Source: Candidatus Latescibacterota bacterium (lineage in GTDB: Bacteria > Latescibacterota > UBA2968). From it: 64,000 nt of DNA. Location: contig JAJEDY010000006.1 in assembly GCA_022821275.1 (NCBI GenBank), forward strand, positions 1 through 64,000, given 5' to 3'. Under the pieces are notes generated by a model, which was not told where the DNA came from, searched no databases, and saw only the letters and a program-made list of their open reading frames with translations. Position 1 is the stretch's first letter; each line of letters begins with the position of its first letter. Shown here one piece after another: positions 7,942-16,459 of this stretch. Made by a program: the position numbers and the translations under genes.

Positions 7942-7961
7942 GACAACCCCCTGTGGTTGTC
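7942..7961. repeat. small palindromic repeat, copy 1
   Basis: A perfect hairpin, GACAACC - CCCTGT - GGTTGTC, lies between the kinase and the secreted-protein gene. The same six-base loop and flanking GTAG recur at 12496-12520 with G:C pairs replacing A:T pairs in the stem, so pairing rather than sequence is conserved. No poly-T follows, so it is not a standard terminator. Confidence 0.6.
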
Positions 7962-7998
7962 CTGCGACCACAATTGGCATTTTCAGGAAATGGCAGAT

Positions 7999-8724
7999 AT
8001 GAAACGGTGTTTAATTGCCATACTTTTGATGACCGCAACGCTGTGGTGCGATGCGGTTGCTCAGGCGCAAGAAAAGCAAGAGGAGTCGCCAGCGGCTTTT
8101 GTCGATGAGGATGGCGATGGTATTGATGATCGCGTGACCTTCCGCCATCGTCTAAGTCAGCGATCTCGGGGAAGTGCGCTGTTGTGGGTGCTCTCAGCGC
8201 AATTGACGGAAGCGCAGCGGACGGCTCTGCAGGCGAGGATCAATGAATTACTCGAGGGAGGGGCAGAACTCTCTGAGATTAGAAGGGCTATTTTTGCCGA
8301 ACTCGAGGGTTTTGGCGTAGATTTAACAGAAACATTTTTGACGCGATTAAGTGCGGTGTTGACAGAAGATCAGATGTCTGCACTTCGCAAAAAGGCCGAG
8401 GCTCTAAAAGCGAATGGTGCGACCTATCACAGGATTTACAGAGAGATACGCGACGAGTTGGCTGTGATGGGGATTAATTGGGAGGGGCAGAGACCCGATT
8501 ACTCCAGTTCTCGGTTGACAGAAGACGAGATGTCTGATCTCCAAAAAAAAATTGACAAACTAATTGCCGATGGTGCGTCTCGCGTTGAAATTCAAAAAGC
8601 CATTCATGCAGAGTTGGAAGAGATAAAGCGGCGCAATAGACGCAGGAATCGCGCTGCGGGTGACCGCAGCGGTCCTCCGCCGAGATCACCTGAGAGAGAA
8701 AGAAGCGGGAAACAGGGAAACTGA
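7999..8724 (+). CDS. secreted protein with three internal helical repeats and a calcium-type acidic loop
   Basis: 241 residues from ATG 7999, with AGGAA 10 bases upstream; the ATG at 7957 is less likely. A signal peptide is clear (KRCLIAILLMTATLWCDAVAQA). It is followed by an acidic loop, DEDGDGIDDR, of the thrombospondin-3/EF-hand kind. Three repeats of about 60 residues follow, each with LTE-x-x-x-x-x-L-x-x-K/R...GA...EI-x-x-x-I-x-x-EL. The tail is rich in Arg, Pro and Ser. It lies downstream of the two-component pair in the same direction, so a periplasmic partner of the sensor, in the manner of CpxP/Spy, is possible but unproven. Not matched to a named family. Confidence 0.75.
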   Translation: MKRCLIAILLMTATLWCDAVAQAQEKQEESPAAFVDEDGDGIDDRVTFRHRLSQRSRGSALLWVLSAQLTEAQRTALQARINELLEGGAELSEIRRAIFAELEGFGVDLTETFLTRLSAVLTEDQMSALRKKAEALKANGATYHRIYREIRDELAVMGINWEGQRPDYSSSRLTEDEMSDLQKKIDKLIADGASRVEIQKAIHAELEEIKRRNRRRNRAAGDRSGPPPRSPERERSGKQGN

Positions 8725-8725
8725 A

Positions 8726-11101
8726 TCAATCCGAGAGAGGAAAAAGCGTTTCAAATATTTTGTCCGTTCGGTTTCGCCAACTCGCCCAACCCGCACCATC
8801 GTTTACTTCGCCTCCGGTAAAGGTATAACCTCTTTTTTTCAGTAGTTGGGCAAATGACGCCGTGCTTTTGCCCAGATCATTTCCCTCCATTGGACTTCGC
8901 AAGTCGTATTTTCCCCAGTCGAGATATATATCTATGGGCTTATGTTTTGATGCCTGAAAGACCATGTGTGCATCTTTGGCTTCTGCGGTTTGATCCCAGG
9001 ATAGGGATTGTATGCCTATTTTGCCAAATATGTCGGGATGTGTAAAGGTGGCGTAAAATGCCATAAATCCGCCGTAAATTGTCCCGATATTTGCCCGGTT
9101 TTCACGGTTTTTGATGGTGCGATATGTCTGGTCGATGTAGGGCACGATCTCTTTTGTAAAGATCCGATTGTACGCATCGCGTTTTTCTCCCACGTATTCT
9201 GCGTATCCTCCCCTGAAGAGTGATGGAACAAAGACCACAATGACAGGACGCACGCGCTTGCCGATGATATTGTCCAGCGAGATATTCATCTTTCCCAGCG
9301 ACCACTGCCGGCGTGCAGCGTGTACATATACGACGGGGTATTGTTCATCGCTTTCATGGTAGCCCGCCGGGAGATAGATTTCCAGGTTGCGCTTTCCCCC
9401 AATTCCCGCGCTTTCAAAACGCATGGTGTCAATTTTGCCGTGAATACCATCTGGCCGCGCTTTGAGATGGTCGGGCGCACGCCAGCGCGGCATGCCGAAA
9501 TAGGATGCGCGGCCAAAGAAGAGGGTTCGAATTTGTCGCGGGTTGAGGGGGTCGGGGATGGTTCGCTGTAAGTCCAGTGTATAGCGATAGGTGATGCGGG
9601 CGTCGGGTTCGAGTTGTGCCGTGGAATAGAAGAAGTCCGTTTCCTCAATTCGGTGCATGGGGTGGTCGTATCGACGCCCTACGTGATCGCCGGTTATGGT
9701 GACGTCTTCCGCTTGGCCGCGATATACAAAATGCACGAGGTTCTCGCCTTCGAGGATTGGGAAGCTTTTCTGTTGTGCCATGAATTGATCGATTTGCGTT
9801 TTTTTGTCTGGGGATTGTTTTACTTTTTCGACAAATTGTGCAAAGCGCGATTTTGGTGCGATGTCTTCTGCATCTGATTTTGCTACTTGTGTTTCTGGTA
9901 CGATTTCGATACAGGCGATTTCCGACATGCTGCGTGCGTAAAATCTGCCATTGGCAAGGCTGGCATGCGTCCAGGAAATGTCGTCGAAGAGTTTTAAGCG
10001 GGCTGTTTCGCGGTATTTTTCGCCCGAAGCCTGTGCGACGGCGAGGTTGCCTTCTTTTGTCATGATTACGAGGTGGTTATCCACGATGATGGGAAAGCCA
10101 TCTCCCGGCTCGCGCGAGCGCCATAAGCGTTCTCCGGTGTTTGTATCGATGCAGGTGAGGATGCGACCGTTATAGCCGAACAGGAGATTTGTGTTAAAGA
10201 CTGCGTAGCTATACGTTCCCCGAATATGGCGCGTCCGCCAGATTTCCTCGGCGGCAAAGGTTTCGTTGTCGGCTCTCAGGCCGATTAGTATGCCGCCGTT
10301 TTTTACAAAATATCGCCCCTCACCAATTTCGACGGGATGTCCGCTGGTATGCCCTGCGCCGGTCTGTCCGCGGTGTGCAAATTGCCAGAGTATTTCACCG
10401 GTTTCAGGAGATAGACCCGCGAGATATTTGTTGCCGAAGAAGACGAGGTGTTTGCGGTTGTCAAAGGCGAATAGACCCGGCGATTGGTAGTTGACTGAGT
10501 CGCTAAATGCCGACCAGATCAAGTCGCCTGATGCAGGGTCATAAGCCGAGACCGCATGTGTTCCGCCGGTTTGGACGATGAGACGGTTGTCGTGTAGAAT
10601 TGGGGATGAGGTAAAGCCCCAAAATGGCACTGTGGCGCGATGGGTTGCGACGAGGTCTATCGCCCAGAGTTTTTTTCCCGTGTTTGCATCGAGTGCGAAC
10701 AATTTTCCCCGGGGACCTAATGCGATGACTTTGTCTTCTGTCACTATCGGCGTTGATAGGGGACCGCTTTGCGAGCCGTAGTGACCGAGATATGCAGTGC
10801 CGATTTTGTATTTCCATCGTTCTGATCCATCTTCGGCGTTGAGGCCGATTATGTAATCAAAGGTTTCATCGGAGTACATGGTTACGGCGAGATCGCCGCG
10901 AATCGAGATGGATGAGTACCCGGCTCCGAGGGGCTTTTTCCAGACGATTTTCAGGGCGTAGGGTTGGTCAGAGGGAAAAACGCCCGCATCGTTGACTCTG
11001 AAGTCTCTGTTGGGACCGCCCCAGTTCGGCCAATCCGCTTTTGCGCCTGCTGGTTGGAAGAAGAATACAAGAACAAAAAGTATGATTAGGGGACGGTTCA
11101 T
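8726..11101 (-). CDS. secreted PQQ-like beta-propeller fused to an esterase-fold domain lacking catalytic residues
   Basis: 791 residues with a signal peptide (PLIILFVLVFFFQPAGA). Residues about 24-400 form a PQQ/WD-like propeller, opening WPNWGGPNRD and repeating blades that end G-x-x-x-W/L. A short E-set/CBM48-like segment follows (LVHFVYRGQAEDVTITG). The C-terminal 250 residues are a Fes/esterase-D fold (IYLPAGYHESDEQYPVVYVH). The nucleophile elbow, normally G-x-S-x-G-G, reads GTIYGG, and the late Gly-Gly-His-x-W motif reads DGAGWASW. The Ser and His are therefore missing and hydrolysis by the usual triad is unlikely. The ATG is preceded by AGGAAA. It is convergent with the upstream secreted-protein gene, 1 base apart. 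Confidence 0.85.
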   Translation of the reverse strand: MNRPLIILFVLVFFFQPAGAKADWPNWGGPNRDFRVNDAGVFPSDQPYALKIVWKKPLGAGYSSISIRGDLAVTMYSDETFDYIIGLNAEDGSERWKYKIGTAYLGHYGSQSGPLSTPIVTEDKVIALGPRGKLFALDANTGKKLWAIDLVATHRATVPFWGFTSSPILHDNRLIVQTGGTHAVSAYDPASGDLIWSAFSDSVNYQSPGLFAFDNRKHLVFFGNKYLAGLSPETGEILWQFAHRGQTGAGHTSGHPVEIGEGRYFVKNGGILIGLRADNETFAAEEIWRTRHIRGTYSYAVFNTNLLFGYNGRILTCIDTNTGERLWRSREPGDGFPIIVDNHLVIMTKEGNLAVAQASGEKYRETARLKLFDDISWTHASLANGRFYARSMSEIACIEIVPETQVAKSDAEDIAPKSRFAQFVEKVKQSPDKKTQIDQFMAQQKSFPILEGENLVHFVYRGQAEDVTITGDHVGRRYDHPMHRIEETDFFYSTAQLEPDARITYRYTLDLQRTIPDPLNPRQIRTLFFGRASYFGMPRWRAPDHLKARPDGIHGKIDTMRFESAGIGGKRNLEIYLPAGYHESDEQYPVVYVHAARRQWSLGKMNISLDNIIGKRVRPVIVVFVPSLFRGGYAEYVGEKRDAYNRIFTKEIVPYIDQTYRTIKNRENRANIGTIYGGFMAFYATFTHPDIFGKIGIQSLSWDQTAEAKDAHMVFQASKHKPIDIYLDWGKYDLRSPMEGNDLGKSTASFAQLLKKRGYTFTGGEVNDGAGWASWRNRTDKIFETLFPLSD

Positions 11102-14932: not shown

Positions 14933-16459
14933 ATGTGTAAACAGATTCTGTTTATTCTGTCAACACTCACGCTTTTGATATATCCGCTGTCTTTGTCGGC
15001 ACAGGATAGTACGGCAGGTGATCAAGCCCTTACTCCAGACTTTGATGGCGATGGTCAGGTTGGTTTCCCTGACTTTTTGGCGTTTGTAAGTCAGTTTGGG
15101 GCACGTCAGGGAGATGGGCGTTATGATGCGAAATATGATCTGGATGGCGACGGCGAAATTGGATTTTCCGATTTTCTGATTTTTAGCAGCAACTTTGGCA
15201 AGGAGGTATCTGCGCCTGAGGGTAGTGGTGGAACAAAAGTTGTTATTCCGGATGCGAATTTGCGCGCTGTTATTGAGGATAGTCTCGGCAAGGCGAGCGG
15301 TACGACGATTACAAGGGGAGAGATGTCAACCTTAACTCGCCTCTGGGCACCGAATGCGAATATTAGAGACTTGACCGGGCTTGAGTTCGCGACCAGTCTC
15401 ACAAGTTTAGATCTTGGTACAAAGAGAGTGGGAGATAGGTGGGTGAATAGCAACGAAATATCCGATCTCTCTTCCCTGTCGGGTTTGACCAGTCTGAAAA
15501 GTCTGTATCTTACCTCCAATAGCATCTCGGATGTGTCAGCGCTGTCAGGCTTGATCGAACTGGAATGGCTGTCTCTTTCCGACAACAGTATTTCGGATGT
15601 GTCGGTGCTCTCTGGATTGACCAACCTGACACGGCTGTATCTTTCCGACAATAGTATTTCGGATGTGTCTGGACTCTCTGGATTGACTAACCTGACAAGT
15701 CTGTGGCTTTACGACAACAGTATTTCGGATGTGTCAGCACTGTCAGGCTTGATCGAACTGGAAAGTCTGGATCTTTCCAACAACAGTATTTCGGATGTGT
15801 CGGTGCTCTCTGGATTGACTAACCTGACAAGTCTGTGGCTTTCCAACAACAGCATTTCGGATGTGTCTGGACTCTCTGGATTGATCAATCTGACAAGTCT
15901 GTGGCTTTACAACAACAGCATTTCGGATGTGTCAGCGCTGTCAGGCTTAATTGAACTGGAAAGTCTGTCTCTTTCCAACAATAGTATTTCGGATGTGTCG
16001 GTGCTCTCTGGATTGACCAACCTGACACGGCTGTATCTTTCCGACAATAGTATTTCGGATGTGTCTGGACTCTCTGGACTGACCAACCTGACAAGTCTGT
16101 GGCTTTACAACAACAGCATCGGTGATGTGTCTGCGCTATCAGGCTTAATTGGGCTGGAAGAACTGTCTCTTCGCAACAACAGCATCAGTGATGTGTCAGC
16201 GCTGTCTGGTTTGATCAATCTGACAAGTCTGTGGCTTTACAACAACAGCATATCAGACCTTTTGCCTCTGGTCTCAAACACGGGATTGGGTACTGGAGAT
16301 GTGGTCGATGTACGGAATAATCCGTTGAGTACCATATCACTCAACACGCATATTCCTGCCCTTCAGGACAGAGGGGTTGAGGTGCGTTTTGGTGCGTTAA
16401 AACCCGCAGTGGAGGAGATAGAAGTACCTGGTGAGATGATGGAACCGTACTCGTACTGA
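14933..16459 (+). CDS. secreted EF-hand (dockerin-like) and leucine-rich-repeat protein, copy 1
   Basis: 508 residues. Signal peptide 1-23 (ends SLSAQ). Two calcium-type loops of dockerin form follow: DFDGDGQVGFPDF (36-48) and DLDGDGEIGFSDF (69-81). Residues 104-178 are the bacterial LRR N-cap (VVIPDANLRAVIEDSLGKA). Twelve 22-residue internalin-type repeats (179-442), consensus VSxLSGLxxLxxLxLxxNSISD, then a C-cap (443-508) with NPLSTIS and THIPAL. Repeats 2-10 form three copies of a 66-residue super-unit. There is no membrane anchor, sortase motif or PEP-CTERM tail. Expected outside the cytoplasm as a binding or scaffolding protein. AGGAAAGG precedes the ATG. Confidence 0.9.
   Translation: MCKQILFILSTLTLLIYPLSLSAQDSTAGDQALTPDFDGDGQVGFPDFLAFVSQFGARQGDGRYDAKYDLDGDGEIGFSDFLIFSSNFGKEVSAPEGSGGTKVVIPDANLRAVIEDSLGKASGTTITRGEMSTLTRLWAPNANIRDLTGLEFATSLTSLDLGTKRVGDRWVNSNEISDLSSLSGLTSLKSLYLTSNSISDVSALSGLIELEWLSLSDNSISDVSVLSGLTNLTRLYLSDNSISDVSGLSGLTNLTSLWLYDNSISDVSALSGLIELESLDLSNNSISDVSVLSGLTNLTSLWLSNNSISDVSGLSGLINLTSLWLYNNSISDVSALSGLIELESLSLSNNSISDVSVLSGLTNLTRLYLSDNSISDVSGLSGLTNLTSLWLYNNSIGDVSALSGLIGLEELSLRNNSISDVSALSGLINLTSLWLYNNSISDLLPLVSNTGLGTGDVVDVRNNPLSTISLNTHIPALQDRGVEVRFGALKPAVEEIEVPGEMMEPYSY
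15533..16126 (+). repeat. three tandem 198-bp units inside LRR copy 1
   Basis: The block starting GTGTCAGC recurs at 15533, 15731 and 15929, exactly 198 bases apart. Each unit encodes three LRRs of types A (VSALSGLIELE), B (VSVLSGLTNLT) and C (VSGLSGL-x-NLTSLWLY). Near-identity at the DNA level points to recent tandem duplication. Confidence 0.85.

Follow-up and report, generated by a model that had tools for sequence, protein, structure and literature searches.

A propeller-fused pseudo-esterase from a Latescibacterota bacterium and the loss of the catalytic dyad among its relatives

Described relatives and domain architecture

Most pseudoenzymes have come to light as individual proteins. 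A secreted PF00756 relative of mycobacteria, MPT51/FbpD, is reported to have no working catalytic site; it differs from the protein described here in being single-domain and actinobacterial, and thus of another lineage. Fes, which is cytoplasmic and has no signal peptide, combines an E-set with an alpha/beta-hydrolase domain (3mga, 3c87), keeps an intact Ser-His site and has no propeller. The CBM48-CE1 feruloyl and acetylxylan esterases (6rzn, 7b6b, 8bbp) are also two-domain proteins, and are active enzymes, with the motifs GLSMGG and GGH in 8bbp, a solved feruloyl esterase. BamB (3p1l) is a propeller-fold lipoprotein of the BAM complex. Among extracytoplasmic binders paired with a TonB-dependent transporter, the beta-propeller surface lipoprotein XusB captures its ligand, a siderophore, for the transporter (PMC13142918), and the surface binding lipoprotein BtuG does so for B12 (PMC10404256).

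The gene analysed here (8726..11101, minus strand; ORF call and Pfam) lies in a window of 64,000 nucleotides, the whole stretch of Candidatus Latescibacterota DNA that was analysed (contig JAJEDY010000006.1), and encodes a protein of 791 amino acids. As judged from its sequence the product is an exported protein of three domains, all features being on the minus strand: a type I signal peptide without lipobox (residues 1-22, MNRPLIILFVLVFFFQPAGAKA; 11036..11101) is followed by a BamB/PQQ_2-like beta-propeller (residues 24-402; 9896..11032; Pfam PQQ_2, E 1e-41), an E-set resembling the N-terminal domain of Fes and CBM48 (residues 446-540; 9482..9766), and an alpha/beta-hydrolase domain (residues 556-788; 8738..9436; Pfam and AlphaFold) that is placed in the PF00756 superfamily by a match of E 6.6e-20 and 72.4 bits, against a gathering score of 22. 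The earlier note's description of an exported fusion of a propeller with an esterase-like domain therefore holds, with the E-set as a third domain between the two. Assignment of the E-set relies on fold matches to Fes and the CBM48-CE1 esterases and on a sub-threshold match to Pfam Enterochelin_N (22.2 bits against a cut-off of 27.1); a fused relative from Acidobacteriota (L146) exceeds that cut-off, with 29.8 bits. Of 63 fused proteins, 62 have a hydrophobic segment at the N-terminus, and one has a doubtful lipobox.

AlphaFold gave a confident full-length model with pLDDT 88.4 and pTM 0.82, for which the fold matches were the CBM48-CE1 esterases and BamB, and a model of the E-set and hydrolase pair with pLDDT 91.7 and pTM 0.90. 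The CBM48-CE1 enzymes are closest by sequence and lead the domain-pair matches by Foldseek E-value; by TM-score over the whole pair Fes 3mga leads instead, with 0.77 against ~0.62 for CBM48-CE1, and the domain orientation of the CBM48-CE1 enzymes therefore departs more from that of the window protein than does that of Fes. The earlier note had proposed overlaying a predicted structure on Fes, and Fes proved to be the best match over the domain pair, with both domains in the same mutual arrangement; the window protein differs from it in carrying a propeller and in lacking the Ser-His dyad. The protein does not reach the score of the Fes equivalog PRK10439 (39.4 bits against a cut-off of 222). 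The propeller matches BamB 3p1l with a TM-score, normalised by target, of 0.75; BamB orthology was rejected by score (59.1 bits against 285.2) and by signal type, the window protein having no lipobox. Assignment as a PQQ-dependent dehydrogenase was likewise rejected (TIGR03075, 38.7 against 480). XusB and BtuG belong to unrelated families and are lipid-anchored lids with no hydrolase domain, XusB being seven-bladed, whereas the fused proteins have type I signals; their likeness to the present family would lie in an extracytoplasmic binder paired with a TonB-dependent transporter, a pairing suggested here by the gene neighbourhoods of relatives.

Loss of the catalytic residues

In alignment with 8bbp, the GLSMGG elbow falls on GTIYGG (9068..9085) and GGHTWANWR falls on DGAGWASWR, so that the nucleophile serine is replaced by Ile675 and the catalytic histidine by Ala770, within the motif remnant DGAGW (8786..8800); the acid position is retained as Asp733 in the WGKYD motif (8903..8905). 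The window protein accordingly lacks both the serine in a G-x-S-x-G elbow and the catalytic histidine that define a CE1 esterase enzyme, as the earlier note had read from the two motifs. The gene is present in 10 of 10 other genomes searched in the same genus, at 75-94% identity. All ten orthologues read GTIYGG or GAIYGG (the latter in the most distant genus member) together with DGAGWASW, and because all ten carry both changes a sequencing artefact is excluded. The gene is intact in 11 of 11 genomes of the genus, and purifying selection acts on it: within the genus the hydrolase has a dN/dS of 0.13-0.24 and the propeller one of 0.04-0.10, values by which a pseudogene reading was rejected and from which it follows that the hydrolase domain is kept for something. 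The orthologue in a genome of the same family (G012, contig C4, L019/L088; ~49% identity) is broken by internal stops into pieces that lie in different frames, and is either a pseudogene or the product of assembly errors.

Conservation of the losses in orthologues, which the earlier note had proposed to check, extends well beyond the genus. Relatives were collected from GTDB genomes; the first set comprised 61 fused proteins readable at both positions and 31 unfused ones, and the second comprised new proteins out of 199 genomes on the Acidobacteriota side and 82 on the KSB1 side. In the first set, where near-identical genus orthologues are included and counts are thus not independent events, none of the 61 fused proteins has both residues; serine is retained in three, all without the histidine, and histidine in four, all without the serine. 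Among the unfused relatives of that set serine is present in 31/31 and histidine in 30/31; a protein listed as unfused in that analysis, L085, is a contig-end fragment that falls inside the fused clade in the tree. The second set gave the same picture, with both residues in 0 of 32 new fused proteins against 25 of 25 unfused. Pooled, the Ser-His pair occurs in 0/93 propeller-fused homologues and in 55/56 unfused relatives. A Fisher p-value for this contrast, calculated with 57 unfused proteins by including L085, takes no account of common descent and is set aside as evidence. By their record titles, which can be wrong for metagenome-assembled genomes, the relatives come from Latescibacterota, KSB1, Caldithrix, Planctomycetota and Acidobacteriota, with single contigs from Bacteroidota, Deltaproteobacteria and others.

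A maximum-likelihood tree of 74 domains, built by a quick method without bootstrap, sets all fused proteins together with L085 apart from the rest by a branch of SH-aLRT 98. The residues that occupy the two lost positions in this clade are varied: Gly, Asp, Ala, Ile, Asn and others at the serine, and Ala, Phe, Thr, Ser, Pro and others at the histidine. These sequences are most simply read as the outcome of a single fusion and a single loss of the dyad, probably followed by drift at both positions. The earlier note had argued that the two changes are unlikely to arise together in a working enzyme; the loss of the dyad stands, but the argument from joint improbability is less apt than the clade-wide pattern, which is better explained by one ancient loss and subsequent drift. 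In a small fused subclade (L134, L137, L138) the elbow again has a serine (GQSRYG, GQSVSRG) and carries an insertion, but valine stands where the histidine would be; re-use of the site is possible there.

A Ser-His pair displaced to other positions, a possibility that the earlier note had raised, was sought by comparing residue conservation in fused and unfused relatives; none is conserved in the hydrolase domain. No histidine of the window protein's hydrolase domain is conserved in more than 45% of the fused clade, His594 being commoner in the active relatives (58%), and the conserved Ser564 and Ser699 are kept at least equally well in active relatives. A displaced catalytic pair was accordingly rejected, its candidate histidines being poorly conserved and its candidate serines not specific to the clade. 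The few positions conserved in unfused and lost in fused proteins include S675, H770, G677 and D595, while the scaffold residues P448, Y505, D517, N520, P578, D610, R669, G673, S699 and W775 are conserved in both groups. Newly conserved in the fused clade are H457, D466, E479 (Asp in the window protein), W540, R661, W729, D733 and D780. With serine and histidine lost as a pair across the clade and no conserved replacement pair, loss of esterase chemistry is strongly supported, and the window protein is firmly classed as a pseudoenzyme.

Genomic neighbourhoods of the gene and its relatives

About 55 bp upstream of the window gene lies a moaB-like gene, followed by one for an IolE-like isomerase; downstream are a convergent gene for an exported protein without assigned family and then the histidine kinase of a two-component pair. 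Conservation of these surroundings (moaB-like, IolE-like and two-component genes) is confined to the genus; a conserved operon was therefore rejected, synteny not going beyond that level. No receptor adjoins the gene in its neighbourhood, and no conserved neighbours were found for most Acidobacteriota and Planctomycetota copies; outside KSB1 and Latescibacterota the neighbours of most copies are uninformative. Two other products of the window bear description. The exported protein encoded at 7957-8724, whose stop codon is 1 bp from that of the convergent pseudo-esterase gene, has ALRKKxExLxANGA-like repeats and a DEDGDGID stretch, and the protein at 14933-16459 combines internalin-like leucine-rich repeats with an N-terminal region that is dockerin/EF-hand-like.

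The link of the fused gene to a receptor rests mainly on KSB1/Calditrichota. In five genomes of this group (G060, G061, G296, G297, G298) one to four tandem fused genes are followed by a stand-alone propeller and then by a TonB-dependent receptor. The receptors in L059, L128, L230 and L231 exceed the cut-off of the siderophore-receptor model TIGR01783, which covers receptors for many ligands, so that membership does not fix the ligand; the receptor in L062 (G296) is truncated by the contig, and its identification comes from Pfam together with a local receptor profile. The same gene block occurs without a receptor in G062, and in G300 its contig ends near the point where the receptor would lie. 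Elsewhere, the receptor of L146 scores below the TIGR01783 cut-off (130.9 against 223.5), and that of L137 is ~3 kb away. The nearest relatives of the window protein form a 12-row tree group (support 93, drawn open) that includes fused copies in the KSB1 receptor clusters. In the window's class the block has stand-alone propellers where KSB1 has fused ones: of 30 over-cut-off receptors, 20 have a propeller relative less than 450 bp upstream of them on the same strand, among them one on contig C18 of the window's own genome (G000). Together these neighbourhoods link the family with a siderophore-type receptor, although for the window copy the link is an indirect one.

A gene block common to Latescibacterota and KSB1 was also observed (L172, at 60000-76000 of contig C18; L173-L178, L059, L164, L230-L232). 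Its first genes encode an aldehyde dehydrogenase, an Fe-alcohol dehydrogenase, a BamB-like propeller, a HutW/HemN-like radical SAM protein, one or more propellers and a siderophore-type TonB receptor, and further genes encode AMP-ligase-like, FAD halogenase-like, glycosyltransferase, permease-like, thioesterase-like and ABC transporter proteins. The block looks like an undescribed biosynthesis-and-uptake cluster; open-access papers yielded nothing that fits either such a cluster or a propeller-esterase pseudoenzyme.

Proposed role and alternatives

The history suggested by these comparisons is that a Fes/CE1-type two-domain esterase, consisting of an E-set and an alpha/beta-hydrolase, would have been joined to a BamB-like propeller a single time in the distant past, and that the Ser-His dyad would have disappeared in the ancestor from which the fused clade descends, the fold then being kept under purifying selection. 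The old substrate cleft may now hold a ligand or partner that it no longer hydrolyses, with the help of residues that have become conserved in the E-set and near WGKYDxR; the propeller may dock the pseudo-esterase to other envelope proteins. From the neighbourhoods of relatives the likeliest role would be capture of a siderophore-like or aryl-ester molecule and its handing over to a TonB-dependent receptor. The window gene itself appears to have been separated from its receptor cluster, which survives on contig C18, where the receptor has a stand-alone relative of the propeller next to it. We infer the ligand and partner of the window protein from this evidence; a siderophore-like or aryl-ester ligand is the leading candidate because of the receptor neighbourhood and the Fes-like arrangement, and the binding of a siderophore- or sugar-ester, which the earlier note had put forward, is plausible on the same two grounds. 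That the protein is an ancient, exported, non-catalytic ligand-binding or docking component of an envelope uptake system, with a siderophore-like or aryl-ester role, has in our estimate about an even chance of being correct.

The main rival holds that the dead hydrolase serves for protein-protein docking within a complex for envelope assembly or sensing, with a BamB-like role and no small-molecule ligand. Pseudo-hydrolases such as neuroligins serve as protein-docking modules, the best fold matches of the propeller include BamB, and the fused proteins are soluble and exported and have no conserved partner gene in many genomes. However, the BamB score is far from reached (59 of 285 bits) and the lipobox is absent, and tandem copies beside a transport receptor suit ligand binding better, so that this docking role appears possible but rather unlikely. 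Less probable by a clear step is an enzyme of new chemistry, located in the cleft or the E-set and acting, for example, via His457, Asp466, Asp733 or Trp729. Its appeal lies in the fact that His457 is conserved in 96% of fused and only 5% of unfused proteins, with Asp466, Glu479, Trp729 and Asp733 also specific to the clade; however, the hydrolase domain offers no Ser, Cys or His that is conserved and could replace the dyad, and His457 sits in the E-set, outside the hydrolase catalytic loops. That the pseudo-esterase domain is decaying toward loss, as the frameshifted pieces of the same-family relative in G012 might indicate, is scarcely credible for a gene that is intact throughout the genus, shows dN/dS far under 1 in each of the domains measured, and belongs to an ancient clade spanning several phyla.

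The loss of catalysis tracks one domain architecture and is preserved over several phyla, with catalytic relatives at hand for comparison, and a single ancient event explains it best; under the reading as a non-catalytic binder, the fused clade thus offers a clean natural test of what is left when an esterase turns binder. More tentatively, and with the odds against it, the siderophore-esterase fold may have given rise to a widespread family of non-catalytic, propeller-fused binders that would form the soluble capture part of an undescribed TonB-dependent uptake system; the tandem copies, of which there are often several, might then each bind a different ligand. Should the link to the receptor prove sound, these proteins would represent a new class of partner proteins for TonB-dependent uptake in poorly studied phyla.
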